Assembly (NCBI GenBank): GCA_944389615.1
Contig: CALXNA010000007.1
Span: 1 to 64,000 of the forward strand
Source of the DNA: an uncultured Anaerobiospirillum sp.
GTDB taxonomy: Bacteria > Pseudomonadota > Gammaproteobacteria > Enterobacterales > Succinivibrionaceae
DNA: 64,000 nucleotides
Reading direction: 5' to 3'
Both the position numbers and the translations under genes were made by a program. Below, piece by piece: positions 15,241 through 22,626 of the stretch. The notes beneath the pieces are model-generated. The model made no database searches. It was not told where the DNA came from and worked only from the letters and a program-made list of their open reading frames with translations. Within the stretch, counting starts at the first letter, position 1. Every line of letters starts with the position of its first letter.

Positions 15241-15717
15241 ATGATTGCACGCCGTCCCTTCCGTTCGATCAACCGCAAGGCCGTCCCGGCCGTTAAGACC
15301 TTGGTCGATTATCTCAATGACCAAGATGCCATCTTAGACAACGTCATCAAGATCCTCGCGCGCGAGTACAACGCTATCAAGGAGCGGCGCTTAGACGAGC
15401 TTGAGGCCATCGCCGAGGACAAATCGTCCTTTATGCTCAAGCTTCAGGCCAATGACCAGCGCATCAAGCTCCACGCTGACGCCGCGCAGCTTAAGACCAA
15501 GTACCCTGACCGCGTCGAGCAGATCAAGGCGAAGCTCGCCAAGTGCAAGATGATGAACGAGACCAATGGCAAGCTCATCACCTTATCGCTCTCGGCCAAC
15601 AAGCGCCTCTACGATGTGCTGATGCACTCGCGCGACAAGTTCTCGCGCAACATGACCTACACCGACAAGGGCAACACCACGGCCACCAGCCCGCTGCGCG
15701 TCAACATCAACGCCTAA
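15241..15717 (+). CDS. flgN: Flagellar export chaperone FlgN
   Basis: FlgN keeps the hook-filament junction proteins FlgK and FlgL unfolded and brings them to the export gate. The helical FlgN domain is visible from VKTLVDYLNDQDAIL to the KRLYDVLMHSR segment, with heptad-like spacing. The start is uncertain. ATG 15241 gives 158 residues with a 21-residue basic leader. A TTG at 15208 has the better ribosome-binding site (GGAGG) and would add 11 residues, while the frame itself stays open from 15034. In Vibrio flgN is followed directly by flgM; here 6.6 kb separates them, including a four-gene operon. Confidence 0.8.
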   Translation: MIARRPFRSINRKAVPAVKTLVDYLNDQDAILDNVIKILAREYNAIKERRLDELEAIAEDKSSFMLKLQANDQRIKLHADAAQLKTKYPDRVEQIKAKLAKCKMMNETNGKLITLSLSANKRLYDVLMHSRDKFSRNMTYTDKGNTTATSPLRVNINA

Positions 15718-15791: not shown

Positions 15792-16360
15792 CCGCTTCAC
15801 GCTGCGGGCAGGTAGCCTTTGTCTCTAAGGAGCAGAGGGCCACTCGCGCGACGCCCTAGGTATCGGCAACCTCATGGACGGTGGAACGCTGCCCGCTCTC
15901 GAGCAGGGGCTAGGCTGCTGCAGTAGGGGCTTGGCCCAGCCTTGCGGTCGTGCCGGAATGGCTCACTTCCCCAGAGACCATCATCGCCCGATGGCTGCCC
16001 AAGGCGCAGTGCGGCAAGCGCCGCCCGCTCTCAAGGTGCCCTTTCATCCACGGTCGTATCCATAGCGCCAGTTCTTAGGGCCCGTAGCCTGAGGTCGTGC
16101 CGGAGTGGCCCACTTCCTCCTTAGAGACCAGCTTAGCCTGATGGTTGCCCGCAGCGCAGTGCGGCAAGCGCCGCCCGCTCTCAAGGTGCCCTTTCATCCA
16201 CGGTCGTATCCATAGCGCCAGTTCTTAGGGCCCGTAGCCTGAGGTCGTGCCGGAGTGGCCCACTTCCTCCTTAGAGACCAGCTTAGCCTGATGGTTGCCC
16301 GCAGCGCGGTGGGGCGAGCGTCGCCGCGCTCTCAAGGTGCCCTGCCAGCGACGGCCGTGG
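15792..16360. repeat. TAGAGACCA-core repeat array 1 (about 150-bp unit)
   Basis: Three direct copies of a unit of about 150 bp start near 15944, 16091 and 16241. The second and third are almost identical over their first 110 bases, with an exact 150-base period; the first is 147 bases long. Each unit carries GTGGCCCAC, TTCCTCCTTAGAGACCA and CCCGCAGC in that order. A shorter copy of the same core lies inverted at about 15792-15842. No convincing gene is present. The same core elements recur in the longer array at 36.0-37.1 kb. Confidence 0.8.
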
Positions 16361-16406
16361 CCCGTAACGACGTGCGGAGGCGCCTACTGTGGTTGTGGCG
16401 AGTTTC

Positions 16407-16422
16407 CGTGATTTACATCACG
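16407..16422. promoter_or_regulatory. CRP/FNR-family-like palindrome
   Basis: CGTGATTTACATCACG is a near-perfect palindrome with the half-site spacing shared by CRP (TGTGA-N6-TCACA) and FNR (TTGAT-N4-ATCAA). It is the first of three such sites before the four-gene operon starting at 16890. Confidence 0.55.
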
Positions 16423-16503
16423 TTTTATGCGGTTAGTGCCCAAATTTTTTTACTCTGCGCAGGGCGCGCCGTATCTGGGCTCGCGCCACCCCCTAGATAC
16501 TTT

Positions 16504-16519
16504 TGTGACCGCATTCACA
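16504..16519. promoter_or_regulatory. CRP-binding site (perfect half-sites)
   Basis: TGTGACCGCATTCACA matches the CRP consensus TGTGA-N6-TCACA at all ten defined positions. It lies 371 bases before the operon's first start codon, between two similar sites. Confidence 0.7.
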
Positions 16520-16640
16520 CAGGCTAAATCGCACTTTGGCCTTTTTCGCGCAATTTGGTTGTAGCTATGCGCAGGCGCACAACGCCTGATGGGACGGGGC
16601 TATACGACGTCTGCGGCGTGCGTTATGCGCCTCTTCATTT

Positions 16641-16656
16641 TGTGACACAAATCACC
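16641..16656. promoter_or_regulatory. CRP-like site
   Basis: TGTGACACAAATCACC matches nine of the ten defined positions of the CRP consensus. It is the site closest to the start of the four-gene operon (234 bases), so it is the best candidate for class I or II activation. The promoter core itself could not be placed with confidence. Confidence 0.6.
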
Positions 16657-16740
16657 CAATTCTCGCTCAAATTTGATGCGTCATTTATTGATAGTCTGCG
16701 GTGACAGGCTGTTTGTCATCAGCCTTCGTGTTGGTTTCTT

Positions 16741-16780
16741 GATACAACAGCAAAAGGCACTTTTTGCGTTTTGTTGTATC
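16741..16780 (+). promoter_or_regulatory. Hairpin in the leader of the CobS-like operon
   Basis: The arms GATACAACA and TGTTGTATC pair perfectly. After a short bulge, GCAAAA pairs with TTTTGC, leaving a loop of about six bases. It could be a leader RNA hairpin or an operator. No U-run follows, so a simple terminator is unlikely. Confidence 0.5.
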
Positions 16781-16845
16781 TATGAGAAAAATTTCCTCTT
16801 GTTACAGTGGAGGTCAGGAGAGGTATCTCCGTGAGTTAGTTACGT

Positions 16846-16869
16846 AAGGCCCCTGCGCGCAGGGGCCTT
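16846..16869 (+). promoter_or_regulatory. 24-base perfect palindrome just before the ribosome-binding site
   Basis: AAGGCCCCTGCG is followed directly by its exact reverse complement. On RNA this gives a GC-rich hairpin ending about 6 bases before the AGAGGA ribosome-binding site of the gene at 16890. It is not followed by a U-run. A role in mRNA stability, protein binding or translation control is inferred. Confidence 0.6.
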
Positions 16870-16889
16870 GACTTAAAGAGGAATGCACT

Positions 16890-17765
16890 ATGACGACCCA
16901 ATTACGCCTTGCCCACATGCGCTTAAGCCCTGAATTAGCTGTAGGTCTGCTCCCGAGCGGGCAGCACTGCCTGCTTGCCAGCGCCGTCTCGGCGCAGGTA
17001 CCGGTTAGCCCGATCACGCGCCTCATCTTCCCCGTGGTCGATGCGCAGCTTGCCCACATGGTGCGCCTGCTCAGTGCCAACTTCTTTGGCCATGAGGTCA
17101 TGCTCACCGGTTTCTTGGTCAACCCGAAGCGTGCCTACTGCAAGCTCTCGCACTTATCAGGGGTGCGTGTGCCGGATACGAACTCGCTTGGTATCCGCGC
17201 TGCGTCTGCCGGGCATGGCGCGGCGGCTTGGGGCTTGAGCCGGATGGCGCTGCAGTATGAGCAGGGCCCCGCCTTAATGGTCAGCTCCCTTGCGCTCGCT
17301 CCGATTGATCCGAGCTATCGCTTGCAGCTGCCGAACTTAAACTTCACGCAGCCGCTCACCGGCGGCATCGGCTGCACCTGCATCTACCAGCCGCGTCTGG
17401 TGCCACTGTACTATGGTTTCCACCACATCCCGACCTCGATCTATACCGAGGCCTTAGGGCCGCGCGCGCTGTCCTTTGAGCTGCCGTACCGCAAGTCCAC
17501 GGCCGCCCGGCGCGCGGTCAGCTCCGCTTTGGCCTTGGCCTTACAGGAGCTGGAGAGCCCGCACGCGACCTTAACCCGCCCGACGGCTCTGACCTCAAAT
17601 TACACCTTAGAGCCGTTCACCAATCCCGAGCCCTTAAAGCCCGCCTATGCCGCCTTCTTAGCTGCCAACCATCTCTGTGGCTTTGCCCGCTGCCTGCAGC
17701 TGCAAGATGTCGCCGACAGCGCATCCGCAGTCCCTGAGACGCTGTTAGTCGCCACCCACGCCTAG
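16890..17765 (+). CDS. Unknown protein, first gene of the CobS-like ATPase operon
   Basis: This 291-residue protein has no family I recognise. AGAGGA lies 7 bases before ATG 16890. It lacks a signal peptide and clear membrane helices, and looks globular and cytoplasmic. Notable stretches are SPITRLIFPVVDAQLAHMV, YEQGPALM and RLQLPNLNFTQPL. The last two resemble YRYGPPLM and LQYPNFTQQL in the N-terminal half of the ATPase encoded third downstream, hinting at a shared fold or a common ancestor. Nine bases separate it from the next gene. The operon lies between flgN and flgM and is probably controlled by CRP through the upstream sites. Confidence 0.75.
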   Translation: MTTQLRLAHMRLSPELAVGLLPSGQHCLLASAVSAQVPVSPITRLIFPVVDAQLAHMVRLLSANFFGHEVMLTGFLVNPKRAYCKLSHLSGVRVPDTNSLGIRAASAGHGAAAWGLSRMALQYEQGPALMVSSLALAPIDPSYRLQLPNLNFTQPLTGGIGCTCIYQPRLVPLYYGFHHIPTSIYTEALGPRALSFELPYRKSTAARRAVSSALALALQELESPHATLTRPTALTSNYTLEPFTNPEPLKPAYAAFLAANHLCGFARCLQLQDVADSASAVPETLLVATHA

Positions 17766-17774
17766 GAGGTTGTT

Positions 17775-18299
17775 ATGTGTAAGCGTACCCGCCGCGCCCT
17801 GCGCGCCCGTCAGATACAGAACTCTGCTGCTGAGACCACTGGGCTTAAGCCTGTCACGCCTAAGCTCGCGGCGCTCAAGATCTCAGCGCTGATGACCACC
17901 GCTCTGCGCGCCCGTCAGGACACGTTATTGGGGCAGGATTTGGCGCCTGAGTTTGATGGCAGCTGGGCGGAGATCCAACTGTTCCTTGAGGCGCTCAATC
18001 CTGAGTACCGCGAGCTCTTTGACCACAAGTCCTATGAGCAATGCCTCGAATGCCTGACCTCCGATGACTACTGGCAGCGCGTGAGCGACCGCGTTGGCGT
18101 CATACGCGCGGCCGATGCGGTGCTCAGCCACGAGCCGCCGTATGAACACGTTTCTGCCCGGGCCCCATCATTTCGCGCCACGCTCCTGACCACCCCGTCT
18201 CAGTCTTATGGGCCTGTCCCGCAGGTTAAATCCTTGGACGATGCGGCCACGGCTTGGGAGCAAAACCTTGCTGCCATCAAGCTGCGCCTGAGCAAGTAG
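17775..18299 (+). CDS. Unknown protein, second gene of the CobS-like ATPase operon
   Basis: This 174-residue protein starts after an excellent ribosome-binding site (AGGAGG, 5 bases upstream). The N-terminus is strongly basic (KRTRRALRARQ); the middle is acidic and aromatic (EFDGSWAEIQLFLEAL, YRELFDHKSYEQCLECL, DDYWQRVSDRVGVIRAAD). No catalytic motif or membrane segment is visible. A second short KISALMTTALRARQDTL stretch echoes the basic N-terminus. I do not recognise a family. Its tight spacing with both neighbours indicates one transcript with the AAA+ ATPase. Confidence 0.7.
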   Translation: MCKRTRRALRARQIQNSAAETTGLKPVTPKLAALKISALMTTALRARQDTLLGQDLAPEFDGSWAEIQLFLEALNPEYRELFDHKSYEQCLECLTSDDYWQRVSDRVGVIRAADAVLSHEPPYEHVSARAPSFRATLLTTPSQSYGPVPQVKSLDDAATAWEQNLAAIKLRLSK

Positions 18300-18335
18300 G
18301 GCGCAGCGTTACCACCAACTTGAGAGGATGAAATC

Positions 18336-19748
18336 ATGCAAAAGCACTTAACTAACACCACTACTGAGGCCGGAGCCGCCTCCACCCCATTGCTCAAGCT
18401 CCCAACTGCGGAGCCGAAGCTCTATTCCATGCTCCAAACGTCCTTGCCGCCGGTGCAAGCGGCCTGCACCGGGCTGCGGGCTACGGAGCCGACGTGGACT
18501 GATGCCCCCGAGGCTCCAGTGTGCGAGGCCGTGCCTGATGTTTCGGCGTGGGATGCCGTGCCTGATGTTTCGGCGTGGGATGCCGAGCCTGATGTTTCGG
18601 CGTGGGATGCCGAGCCTGATATTTCGGCGTGGGATGCCGAGCCTGATGTTTCGGCGTGGGATGCCGAGCCTGATGTTTCGGCGTGGGATGCCGAGCCTGA
18701 TGTTTCGGCGTGGAATGCCGAGCCTGATGTTCCGGCGTGGGATGCCGAGCCTGATATTTCGGCGCGGGATGCCGAGCCTGATGTTTCGGCGTGGGATGCC
18801 GAGCCTGATGTTTCGGCGTGGGATGCCGTGCCTGAGGCCCCAGCGGGTGCTGCGGCTATGCTGCCTGAGGCGGCGGTGCTGCCTGCGGCGCTGCCGTTGC
18901 CGCTACAGCGTGCCATTGGCCATGAAATGGCCGCCAAGAAGTTGGCCGTCGCGGCCGAAGCGGCCCACGGTACCACCGCGGCGCGGGCGCTCAATGAGGC
19001 ACTGCCTGAGTCCTTGCTCAGTGGCAGCGAGCCTGAGGTGACGCCTGAGACTTTACTGCTGTGGCTGCGGGAATTGACGGCGCCGCATGCTCCCTTCCCG
19101 GCGGACGCTTCGGCGGCCTTAGTGGTGAGCGAAGCGCGCCGTGACTTACGCTACGCCTCAGTGCAGGACACGCTTGCGGCGACGGCCGGTGGTAAGTGGA
19201 CGCCGCTTGATGATCACGCGCTCTGTGCGCCACTCGATCCGGTCGATCCGGTACCACTGCCGGAGCTAGGCCAAGCCCCGCTCGATCGGGGGATTGCACC
19301 GTTAGCCGAGCCACTGCCGCAGGCGTGGCGCTGGCTGTCTTTATGGGGACAGAAGCCTTTGTGCGCGCACAGTCTGCCGCCGACGGCAGAGCTTGAGGCG
19401 CAGCTCAATGCCGCCTTTGCGGGGGATGAGGAGTGGGCAGTGGGGCCGAGCGAGCCTCCTGACGCGGAGGGGCCGTACTTAAGTCCGGCCGACCTTGCGT
19501 GGATTGCCGCCGGGTGGGACGCTCCGAGCAGCTCTTTGCCCGAGCAGCTGCCGCTTAAGGAGCAGGTGCGGCGGCGCGAGCGCGAGGAGCGTGAGCGCAC
19601 GGCGCGGTCGGACTTAGTACGCTGGGCCCGGCGCGGGCGGGGGCGCAGCAGCTCAGATCTGCGCCACAAGCGTGAGCGCACGCGCTGGAATCAGCGCTGT
19701 GGCCACCCTGGGGCCGTTATGCGCCAAGGAGGTCGTTATGGCTACTAA
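18336..19748 (+). CDS. Unknown repeat protein, third gene of the CobS-like ATPase operon
   Basis: This 470-residue protein contains eleven consecutive 9-residue units of consensus PDVSAWDAE at about residues 67-165. A Pro/Ala-rich globular part follows, then a highly basic, Arg-rich C-terminus (VRRREREERERTARSD, RWARRGRGRSSSDLRHKRER). The acidic repeat plus basic tail could mediate binding to nucleic acid or to a partner. It has no VWA MIDAS motif, so it is not an obvious CobT-like partner for the ATPase. GAGG lies 9 bases before ATG 18336. Its end overlaps the start of the ATPase gene by 11 bases, which suggests coupled translation. I recognise no family. Confidence 0.72.
   Translation: MQKHLTNTTTEAGAASTPLLKLPTAEPKLYSMLQTSLPPVQAACTGLRATEPTWTDAPEAPVCEAVPDVSAWDAVPDVSAWDAEPDVSAWDAEPDISAWDAEPDVSAWDAEPDVSAWDAEPDVSAWNAEPDVPAWDAEPDISARDAEPDVSAWDAEPDVSAWDAVPEAPAGAAAMLPEAAVLPAALPLPLQRAIGHEMAAKKLAVAAEAAHGTTAARALNEALPESLLSGSEPEVTPETLLLWLRELTAPHAPFPADASAALVVSEARRDLRYASVQDTLAATAGGKWTPLDDHALCAPLDPVDPVPLPELGQAPLDRGIAPLAEPLPQAWRWLSLWGQKPLCAHSLPPTAELEAQLNAAFAGDEEWAVGPSEPPDAEGPYLSPADLAWIAAGWDAPSSSLPEQLPLKEQVRRREREERERTARSDLVRWARRGRGRSSSDLRHKRERTRWNQRCGHPGAVMRQGGRYGY
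18534..18830 (+). repeat. Eleven in-frame 27-bp tandem repeats
   Basis: Eleven exact-length 27-base units (297 bases) of the type CCTGATGTTTCGGCGTGGGA-TGCCGAG lie end to end inside the third gene of the operon. Most differ by one or two bases, such as GTT/ATT, GTG/GAG or TGG/CGG. Because 27 is a multiple of three, units can be gained or lost without breaking the reading frame. Confidence 0.95.
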
Positions 19749-22173
19749 GATCACGGCCTGTTATCAGGCCTCCGATGGCCTAGGCCTGCCCGTATCGTTA
19801 AGTGCGGTCGGGGCCTGCCCAGTGGGCTTTGATGGGGGCGCCTTGCGCGCCTTGGCGCAGGCGTTAAAGGGCCTGCCGGTCGCGGTCGCGCTGTGGTGGG
19901 CGCTACAGCGCATTAAGCTGCCGTCTGCGTTCAGCTTGGGCCTGACTGAGTTGAGCTTTGGCCAAATCGCGCTGATTGCCGCGCCGCTGCAGCACTGCCT
20001 GATGGCACGCGAGCTAGCGCCCGTGCTCAAAGAGTTTGGGCCGGCCTTGACCTTTAAGGCCGCCGGAGTGTCGGTGCAGCCGTATTCGAGCTTGCCTTCG
20101 GTGACCACGGTGCTCTTGCCCGATCCTGACTCAGATGAGCCGGCGCTCGTGACCGAGCGGCGCTACTCGCCTTACCGCTATGGGCCGCCGCTGATGGCGC
20201 TCGATGAGCTCCAATACCCCAACTTCACCCAGCAGCTCATGCCCCAGCGCAATGCCCATCTCAAGCATGGCTCCATGTACTGGGCGCGCCTTGCCAGTGA
20301 CCAAGTGCGTGAGCACCTGCGTGACCCTCTGGTTAAGGACTTCCCCGCCCCGCGGGGCGGCAGCGACCTCAGCCTCTGTGCACCGGGGCGCGTCCCGGGC
20401 AATGACCTCGCGTGGGCGGTGGAAGAGGGCACGCCGCTGCATCTGGCGCTGCAGACCACGGCCGAGCGAGCATGGACGCTGCCTTATGCCTTGGAAGATG
20501 AGGTCTGCTCTTACCTTGATTTGCTGCCCGAAACTCCGCATGCTGCAGTGCCGCCGACTGTGTCAGTGGCGGCACCGGTGGCTACGCCTGCTGCTGCGTC
20601 AGCGCCGCGTGGGCGCACGGTGGATCTGGAGCCGCTCTTTGCCGATGCGCTGGTTGCCGGGAGTGCGCCGTTAGGCTTGGGGCAGGCTACGGTCGCGCCG
20701 GATGATGCGACGCTGCAGGTGCCGCGCTCCAATCCGCACTACATCTTCGCGCGTGAGACGCTCTATGAGGTACTGCTCTACCTCACGGAGCCGACCCACG
20801 ATGCCTTGTTCTTGGTTGGGCCGACCGGCTGTGGCAAAACCTCGGCCTTGTTTGAGGTGGCGGCGCGCTTGCGCTGGCCCATTGAGTCGGTGACCTTGTC
20901 GCAAAAGAGCGAGGTGAGCGACCTGATCGGCAGCCATACGCTGCAGCAGGGTTCGCTGCGCTACTGCTATGGGCCGCTCACGCGCGCGATGCGCTCAGGG
21001 GAGATCTTGCTGCTCAACGAGATCGACCTGATGCCGCCGGGCGAGCTGGCCGCCTTAAACGACGTGTTAGAGGGGCGGGCGCTGACCATTAGCGCCAATC
21101 ACGGCGAGGTGATCACGCCTCATCCGTTCTTTAGGGTGGTCGCGACCGCCAACTCCAAGGGCACGGGCGACGACTCGGGCGCCTACCACGGCGTACGCCT
21201 GCAAAACCAAGCCTTCCTCGATCGCTGGCGCTTTTGCGAGGTCGACTACCCGAGCGCGGCGCAGGAGCGGCTGATGCTGACGCGTGCCTGTCCTGAGCTC
21301 AATCCGGACTTTGTCGACGGTATTTTGCACTTTGCCACCGAGGTGCGCTTGGGCCAAGTGAGCGAGCCGAGCAATCGCGTGCTCTTGCGGCGCTTGGCGC
21401 AAGCGGAGGCGCGTTTGGTCGCCAGCAGCGTCCAAGACCTAAAGGACTGTGCCGCGGCCTTGCGCTCCTTGGTTGAGGGGCAGGTGGACGTGCCGCAGCA
21501 AGCGGCGCTGCAGGCTGAGCTTCAGCGCGCGGAGCTGACGGCGCAGGCCTTTGCGGCGCAGGAGCAGCTTGCGCCCTTCTTTGATGAGCTCTTAGCCCAT
21601 AAGAGCTTGCTGGCGCAGCATGACGCCACGGTGGATGAGACCACCGCCCATCAGGCTGCCAATGACTTGTTTGCGCATTACGAGGACGCGATGCCGGGCT
21701 TTGAGGACTTGCATGAGCGCAGCTGTGCGCAGCTCCAACAGGCGCAGGCCGTGGCGCAGGTTGAGGCCCAAGCGGCGGAGCGCAGTGGCGTCTCCGGGCT
21801 TTCGGCGCCGTTCTCAAGCCGCTCGCTCTTGCGCATCGCACAGCTCTACTACGCCCACGACGAGCTCTCGGTGCAAGAGGCCATTTCATTAGGCTTTGCC
21901 TCGCGTTTGCCTGCGGCTGAGTATGAGTACTTGCTGCGCCTGAGTTACGACATCTTCGGCTATGGCAGCAACTTCAACTCCTTGCCCCATAAGGTGTCCG
22001 ATCCGGAGGCCTACGCGCAGGTCAAGGCGCAGCTCCTCAAGTACAGCTTAAGTCAGGTGCAAGCTAACTTGACGCGGCTGCAGCGCTGCCAAGCGCGTGT
22101 GCTCAAGGCGCAGACTCCGGCTCCAGCTCCGGCGGCAACCTCAGAGCCCACTCCGGTACAGGCCACGGCCTAA
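19738..22173 (+). CDS. CobS/MoxR-type AAA+ ATPase
   Basis: This is an 811-residue AAA+ ATPase with a unique N-terminal half (residues 1-330, partly Pro/Ala-rich near 270-295). The ATPase core holds Walker A GPTGCGKT at 361-368, Walker B EILLLNEID at about 422-430, the sensor-1 segment VVATANSKGTGDDSGAYHG at about 467-485, and FLDRWRF with a likely arginine finger at about 493-499. The sensor-1/YHG and DRW segments closely resemble CobS, the MoxR-family motor of cobaltochelatase. A helical region of about 200 residues follows. CobS-type motors normally work with a VWA protein, but none is encoded here. AAGGAGG lies 5 bases before ATG 19738; the upstream frame from 19672 lacks such a site. Confidence 0.88.
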   Translation: MATKITACYQASDGLGLPVSLSAVGACPVGFDGGALRALAQALKGLPVAVALWWALQRIKLPSAFSLGLTELSFGQIALIAAPLQHCLMARELAPVLKEFGPALTFKAAGVSVQPYSSLPSVTTVLLPDPDSDEPALVTERRYSPYRYGPPLMALDELQYPNFTQQLMPQRNAHLKHGSMYWARLASDQVREHLRDPLVKDFPAPRGGSDLSLCAPGRVPGNDLAWAVEEGTPLHLALQTTAERAWTLPYALEDEVCSYLDLLPETPHAAVPPTVSVAAPVATPAAASAPRGRTVDLEPLFADALVAGSAPLGLGQATVAPDDATLQVPRSNPHYIFARETLYEVLLYLTEPTHDALFLVGPTGCGKTSALFEVAARLRWPIESVTLSQKSEVSDLIGSHTLQQGSLRYCYGPLTRAMRSGEILLLNEIDLMPPGELAALNDVLEGRALTISANHGEVITPHPFFRVVATANSKGTGDDSGAYHGVRLQNQAFLDRWRFCEVDYPSAAQERLMLTRACPELNPDFVDGILHFATEVRLGQVSEPSNRVLLRRLAQAEARLVASSVQDLKDCAAALRSLVEGQVDVPQQAALQAELQRAELTAQAFAAQEQLAPFFDELLAHKSLLAQHDATVDETTAHQAANDLFAHYEDAMPGFEDLHERSCAQLQQAQAVAQVEAQAAERSGVSGLSAPFSSRSLLRIAQLYYAHDELSVQEAISLGFASRLPAAEYEYLLRLSYDIFGYGSNFNSLPHKVSDPEAYAQVKAQLLKYSLSQVQANLTRLQRCQARVLKAQTPAPAPAATSEPTPVQATA

Positions 22174-22245
22174 CGGGCCGACTTGGCCGAGTCGGGACTG
22201 CGGCCCGCATGGGCCGCGGTGCCGCGGGGTGGCACTAATAGCCAC

Positions 22246-22277
22246 GAAAAAGCCAGCGTCAAGCTGGCTTTCTCTTT
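22246..22277. terminator. Bidirectional terminator between the ATPase gene and flgM
   Basis: AAAGCCAGC and GCTGGCTTT form a 9-bp stem with a 5-base loop. It is flanked by an A-run on the left and TTTCTCTTT on the right, so it can end transcripts from both converging genes. Confidence 0.8.
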
Positions 22278-22296
22278 GAGGCAAGATGTGCTCGGG

Positions 22297-22626
22297 CTAA
22301 TCTAACAGAAAGCTCAGATCGGAGCTGGCCGCTAACATCTTGGCGGCGGTACGCGCATCGTCAAACTCGAAGGTGCCGGTGGCTAATTGGTGCTTGATAG
22401 CGGCGACCTTCTCGTAGTCGATGCCATCAGATTGCAGCGCGATCTCGGTGGCGCGCGCCACGTTCTTGGCCTCTTGCGTAAACTGGACGTCGTCGGGCTC
22501 TTGGGTTTTGCTCGCGCCTAGGTTCGCTGCTACGGCCTTGGTCTTAGTGCTGGCCTGCGTCCGGGTCGGGGCCACGCTCTCGGGCATGGCCGTAATCGTT
22601 CTATCACGTAATAAATCGATTGCCAT
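22297..22626 (-). CDS. flgM: Anti-sigma-28 factor FlgM
   Basis: FlgM binds FliA (sigma-28) and blocks late flagellar transcription until it is exported through the finished hook. This 109-residue protein has the FlgM pattern: a disordered Thr/Ala-rich N-terminus, then DDVQFTQEAKNVARA, the segment DYEKVAAIKHQLATGTF, and a final MLAASSDLSFLLD. AGAGGGAAG precedes the ATG. It is slightly longer than enterobacterial FlgM. In Vibrio flgM lies between flgA and flgN, as it does here apart from the intervening operon. flgA lies upstream on the same strand, 275 bases away. Confidence 0.88.
   Translation of the reverse strand: MAIDLLRDRTITAMPESVAPTRTQASTKTKAVAANLGASKTQEPDDVQFTQEAKNVARATEIALQSDGIDYEKVAAIKHQLATGTFEFDDARTAAKMLAASSDLSFLLD

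Follow-up and report, generated by a model that had tools for sequence, protein, structure and literature searches.

The four genes P0001 to P0004, which lie between flgN and flgM in the chromosome of an uncultured gut bacterium, an Anaerobiospirillum sp. (Succinivibrionaceae), may encode the motor part of a MoxR/VWA machine whose genes are divided between two loci and which would remodel or cleave proteins on single-stranded DNA or recombination intermediates. The identity of the two main parts, an AAA+ motor (P0004) and an unlinked HExxH-VWA partner protein, we hold with high confidence; to the whole chain of reasoning, from these genes to an activity on DNA, we give somewhat less than even weight. 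The window, by which we mean the entire stretch of 64,000 nucleotides analysed, contains the following features in this order:

flgN, 15241..15717, plus strand: upstream border (Pfam PF05130, 5.7e-19)
P0001, 16890..17765, plus strand: 291 aa, without a recognised family, at the place of an SSB-like gene
P0002, 17775..18299, plus strand: 174 aa, without a recognised family, dN/dS 0.15
P0003, 18336..19748, plus strand: 470 aa, with a 27-bp tandem repeat and an Arg-rich C-terminus, dN/dS 0.23
P0004, 19738..22173, plus strand: 811 aa, CobS-like MoxR-clade AAA+ ATPase
flgM, 22297..22626, minus strand: downstream border (Pfam PF04316, 1.6e-11)

The compact operon was as the earlier note had described it, in its open reading frames, their coordinates and their spacing (9 bases, 36 bases, then an 11-base overlap), and Pfam confirmed FlgO, FlgN, FlgM, FlgA, CheV and CheR around it in the window. 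Orthologues of all four genes, in identical order, were found in two other Anaerobiospirillum genomes (L031 and L032, with contigs named uncultured Anaerobiospirillum sp. and Candidatus Anaerobiospirillum stercoravium). Over alignable parts, dN/dS between the window and L031 was 0.29 for P0001, 0.15 for P0002, 0.23 for P0003 and 0.20 for P0004. The operon genes are under purifying selection, and these values together with the syntenic orthologues show that all four are real genes and not chance open reading frames. The stretch upstream has features of its own: a 150-bp tandem repeat (2.7 copies) occupies 15938-16343 in the gap between flgN and the operon, and three CRP-like palindromes, at 16407, 16504 and 16641 (2, 0 and 1 mismatches), lie within 250 bp upstream of P0001; no such sites were conserved ahead of the genes of the relatives, nor were they enriched across the window. 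A perfect GC-rich inverted repeat (GGCCCCTGCG/CGCAGGGGCC) lies at about 16850-16870, just 5' of the P0001 ribosome-binding site. A search of Rfam gave no match.

P0004 matched the Pfam family AAA_5 over residues 357-475 (1.2e-21) and phrog_249, the phage CobS family (1.1e-50), in agreement with the proposal that a MoxR/CobS-type motor stands here beside three proteins of unrecognised family. Its Walker A motif is GPTGCGKT (361-368) and its Walker B motif LLLNEID (424-430), where asparagine replaces aspartate, giving NE for the usual DE, throughout the ATPase group; we count this substitution against the proposed machine. The AlphaFold model reached good confidence chiefly in the AAA+ core; a Foldseek search of the PDB matched this core to NorQ and CbbQ. 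The model also predicted a long-helix insert at about 542-682, ahead of the lid domain. Residues 1-320 had low model confidence and no match, and similarity between this N-terminal region and P0001, considered as paralogues, was not significant. By sequence, CobS (1.3e-45) and CobT (8.7e-13) are among the nearest solved structures, which would favour a motor of cobaltochelatase or another chelatase, working with CobT and CobN. Against the cobaltochelatase CobS model (TIGR01650, PD_CobS), however, P0004 gave a partial match of only 67.1 bits, far below the cut-off of 558.55. Judged from its sequence, P0004 is a MoxR-clade AAA+ protein and not CobS proper.

The earlier note had found neither a VWA protein nor a chelatase. 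This was correct for the operon but not for the genome, where the unlinked VWA partner that the same note had suggested was indeed recovered by using as query the VWA protein adjoining a second ATPase copy in another genome (G015, L049). The partner is a protein of 1229 aa encoded at G000:C56:5612-9301 (locus L086), with a CobT-like N-terminal part, a VWA domain (PF00092, 4.9e-9) and a large insert between them. At its N-terminus, LAHEAGHLRFSNF and then LEDGRIE make up an HExxH...E zinc-peptidase signature with HEAGH at residue 61, and its C-terminal part carries the MIDAS motif VDCSGSM at residue 1049. A VWA homologue was present in all 19 genomes tested, this one included, and the combination of HExxH...E and VWA recurred in the other Succinivibrionaceae members examined, in SXT-type ICEs, an IncC plasmid, Duodenibacillus and phages SSU5 and S-PM2. 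A fast-evolving gene follows directly after the VWA gene (L086:9311-10303, LYDLEELNPLITNL...), and a gene with a similar motif follows the VWA gene at three further loci (L092, L096 and L097); it is possibly a further component.

The same protein bears on the chelatase reading. Cobaltochelatase CobS and CobT are sequence relatives over the core, but the N-terminal domain of CobT lacks HExxH, which was missing at the aligned place in all six canonical CobT proteins compared (L199-L204), and the enzyme needs CobN, for which the genome held no match to PF02514 at E <= 10. Nor did the TIGR01651 CobT model match anything in the genome, so that the check for a standard CobS with CobN or CobT elsewhere in the genome came out negative. 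Since HExxH is kept in the partner, CobT is without it and CobN is absent, the partner looks like a peptidase and not a chelatase subunit; from its motifs we predict a metal-dependent protease. A chelatase motor is therefore already contradicted and hardly credible. Canonical CobT itself resembles a degenerate HExxH peptidase, with CHDxxxH-type residues in place of AHExxH and the downstream glutamate retained.

The other operon proteins gave less to go on. P0001, whose orthologues lie at L031:16164-17303 and L032:3351-4682, had no match in Pfam, NCBIfam, PHROG or the PDB, and its AlphaFold model was uninformative (pLDDT 30). At the same position in relatives, the products of L036 (409 aa) and L035 (507 aa) resemble OB folds interrupted by a long insertion; L036 reached E = 0.014 against the SSB profile and E = 0.003 in profile comparison, yet with a probability of 11%. 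The strand pattern of P0001, judged by eye, is akin to that of these two proteins. We propose, from its position, that P0001 is a divergent, inflated SSB-like protein. Assignment of P0001 as an SSB by sequence was tried and rejected: when it was compared with SSB (PF00436 and an SSB profile), neither family-profile alignment by hhalign nor HMM searches nor a profile search of the PDB gave significant similarity, and the agreement was in position alone. Small open reading frames related to P0002 occur as tandem duplicates in L031, and the repeat in P0003 (27 bp, 11.7 copies, 18521-18835) encodes AWDAEPDVS repeats. P0002, P0003 and the N-terminal part of P0004 belong to no recognised family, which also counts against the proposed machine.

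Gene company in relatives points towards DNA. An SSB-like gene (PF00436) precedes the ATPase gene at three family loci, once in the order flgN, SSB-like gene, ATPase, flgM (L041) and twice as a pair away from flagellar genes (L040, L043); in some genera, for example in Succinivibrio dextrinosolvens (L038/L050), the ATPase has no adjoining SSB-like gene, a point against the proposed machine. SXT-type ICEs have the order ssb, bet, exo, ATPase, one gene, DUF3150, one gene, VWA (Pfam identified DUF3150 and VWA; the calls of ssb, bet and exo come from reading the sequence), and an IncC plasmid has ATPase, x, ssb, bet, exo, DUF3150, VWA. Read from sequence, a Duodenibacillus operon (L189:8491-15025) runs ATPase, Bet, exonuclease, a DUF3150-like gene and HExxH-VWA, and is a mobile-type version in another bacterial family. 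The order is CobT, CobS, DnaE in phage SSU5, and gp47, gp46, 'Peptidase', CobS, gp45, gp44 in phage S-PM2. No bet or exo was found among the operon genes. DUF3150 was absent from the genome and, beyond one partial match (G011), was not detected in Succinivibrionaceae, which likewise counts against the proposed machine.

Phage records that carry a relative of the ATPase run to hundreds, and plasmid records to thousands. Phylogenetic analysis placed most family ATPases in one clade (support 100/99), which those of genera g8 and g11 joined with lower support. This clade stands beside an ICE/IncC clade (99/98), the joining node having moderate support (80/71), and the ATPase groups with those of mobile elements and not with distant phage ATPases. 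Judged from this tree, the family has a relative of a mobile-element module, fixed in the chromosome. The closest known systems are the modules of SXT/R391 ICEs, IncC plasmids, the IncP-7 plasmid pCAR1 (ORF100-103) and Rts1/R478, which share the HExxH-VWA partner and the company of SSB. Over most of the core, SXT/IncC-type ATPases share 36-40% identity with L041, a compact ATPase of the family. The Anaerobiospirillum version differs in being chromosomal and split over two loci, without linked Bet/Exo or DUF3150, and its proteins are about 2-7 times longer. The earlier idea of a new MoxR-based remodelling module thus stands for remodelling, by family membership, but not for newness, given the relatives in phages, SXT-type ICEs and IncC-type plasmids. 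The pCAR1 operon, which includes a MoxR ATPase as well as a VWA protein, was described as conserved in R478, Rts1, SXT and R391, and the passages on it assign no function (PMC2642839). In our literature search no paper mentioned DUF3150, and none combined cobS, SXT, ssb, bet and exo.

The CobS/CobT or MoxR-vWA-metallopeptidase pairs of phages (T4-like cyanophages, SSU5 and jumbo phages) resemble the present pair in the phrog_249 match and in a VWA protein with HExxH. They differ in being linked to replication and recombination genes and in the roles proposed for them, virion assembly or cobalamin. The jumbo-phage pairs, in which MoxR accompanies a vWA protein fused to an N-terminal metallopeptidase domain, have been proposed to act in virion assembly (PMC7824862), and phage pairs have been read as cobalamin synthesis genes (PMC8651126); we count both proposals against the proposed machine. 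The ancestry of the pair and its gene company (SSB-like genes, ssb-bet-exo, gp46/47, clamp and DNA polymerase) suggest that the substrates are probably proteins on single-stranded or recombining DNA. NorQ/NorD, CbbQ/CbbO and RavA/ViaA share the architecture of a MoxR AAA+ protein plus a VWA protein, and their VWA partners NorD, CbbO and ViaA act on cofactor or respiratory enzymes. A general chaperone of this kind, maturing a non-DNA complex, would suit the core fold, for which NorQ and CbbQ were the best matches. No cofactor enzyme or respiratory gene is linked to the operon, however, and the relatives repeatedly adjoin DNA replication and recombination genes; to our knowledge, none of these three systems has an HExxH partner next to recombination genes. 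We regard such a chaperone as unlikely.

A further possibility is that the pair belongs to the flagellar apparatus. The placement of the ATPase between flgN and flgM is not unique to the window but common in Succinivibrionaceae: in several genera the ATPase, alone or together with the SSB-like gene, lies between flgN and flgM/flgA, as expected of a chaperone or remodeller for flagellar assembly or for FlgM/FlgN regulation. However, ATPase/VWA presence did not track FliG across 35 family genomes (Fisher p = 1.0). Five genomes had the ATPase and the VWA protein but no FliG (G019, G020, G029, G033, G034), and eight had FliG but no VWA protein and at most a weak ATPase match (G011, G018, G021, G022, G023, G028, G030, G032). 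In four sampled genera, Succinatimonas hippei among them (L040, L042, L043, L044), the ATPase is not located with flagellar genes, and the VWA partner is encoded outside the flagellar cluster. Because presence is independent of FliG and the ATPase is elsewhere in four genera, the flagellar address appears positional and not functional, and a flagellar accessory is improbable.

The two proteins occur together. Among 57 family genomes, 41 had both, 14 had neither (including G011 and G032, whose weak ATPase matches were scored absent), two had the VWA protein only and none the ATPase only. The two exceptions (G001 and G008) have flgN near a contig end, so the ATPase may have been lost to assembly. 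By majority call per genus, 9 of 14 genera had both and 5 neither (Fisher p = 5e-4); genus g4 was scored absent, G024 being the only one of its five genomes with a pair, and that a divergent one. The VWA protein was rare in the class at large (4/273 other genomes). Outside phages and plasmids, cultured carriers of the pair are Succinivibrio dextrinosolvens, Succinatimonas hippei and Anaerobiospirillum succiniciproducens. Two genomes (G011 and G022) have an SSB-like gene directly after flgN without a VWA partner (L103:4002-4364 and L102:4981-5514); these lone genes are perhaps remnants of the module.

The operon evolves several-fold faster than the flagellar genes that flank it: dN between the window and L031 was 0.24-0.41 for P0001-P0004 and 0.01-0.18 for the flanking genes, a conservative comparison for fast genes since stretches below 40% identity were left out. 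Motor and partner were alike in this respect (dN 0.235 for the ATPase and 0.243 for the VWA protein, with dN/dS of about 0.2). Both have also grown. The ATPase is 550-2358 aa long in Anaerobiospirillum versus 310-380 in most other genera, the VWA protein about 1000-1520 versus 530-610 elsewhere, and the product of the gene at the SSB position 291-851 aa versus about 120-220, while the length of FlgN is unchanged. This joint growth and divergence of motor and partner fits a shared complex.

Rapid evolution also makes the main rival a module for defence against mobile elements or phages, captured from mobile elements. An origin shared with phages and ICEs, fast evolution, inflated proteins and a patchy pattern of loss among genera are typical signs of genetic conflict, and MoxR-vWA conflict systems have been described (PMC7159879), which we count in its favour. 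On the other side, PADLOC gave no match for the operon components beyond weak generic P-loop matches to P0004, the syntenic location is fixed with long vertical inheritance, and no effector gene was recognised. The earlier label 'defence-like' may apply, and we consider a defence role rather unlikely. A decaying mobile-element relict would suit the mobile relatives, the repeat-rich, inflated sequences and the divergent ATPase of one genome (G002), in which the Walker B region is altered. Such decay is very improbable: all the genes are under purifying selection, the catalytic motifs of motor and partner are intact, and the two are retained together over many genera.

The two-locus machine that we propose would work as follows. 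P0004 would assemble into an AAA+ ring and pull on the substrate; the VWA/MIDAS domain of the partner would dock on this ring and present the substrate; and cleavage would fall to the N-terminal HExxH domain, so that the whole would act as an ATP-powered metalloprotease or remodeller. An SSB-like subunit, here probably P0001, would target the machine to DNA. A more specific version, a domesticated ssDNA-directed ATP-dependent metalloprotease (SSB-like protein, AAA+ unfoldase and HExxH-VWA protein) that removes or degrades proteins trapped on DNA, for example at recombination intermediates or DNA-protein crosslinks, is doubtful, though conceivable. An SXT/IncC-like module would have become fixed in Succinivibrionaceae chromosomes, and its proteins would then have turned large and fast-evolving in Anaerobiospirillum.

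Because the partner is an unlinked predicted protease and the distribution speaks against flagella, the system appears to be neither a vitamin-B12 enzyme nor a flagellar part. Fixed chromosomal genes, the absence of CobN in the genome tested and the retained HExxH argue instead that the pair is a peptidase or remodeller. Its function becomes testable, since cultured hosts carry the pair and the ICE/IncC versions reside in well-studied elements. The phage relatives are often labelled as cobalamin or porphyrin biosynthesis genes; if the more specific version above is true, the 'CobS/CobT' genes of phages and ICEs that are annotated as cobalamin genes would share the metalloprotease role of the Succinivibrionaceae pair.
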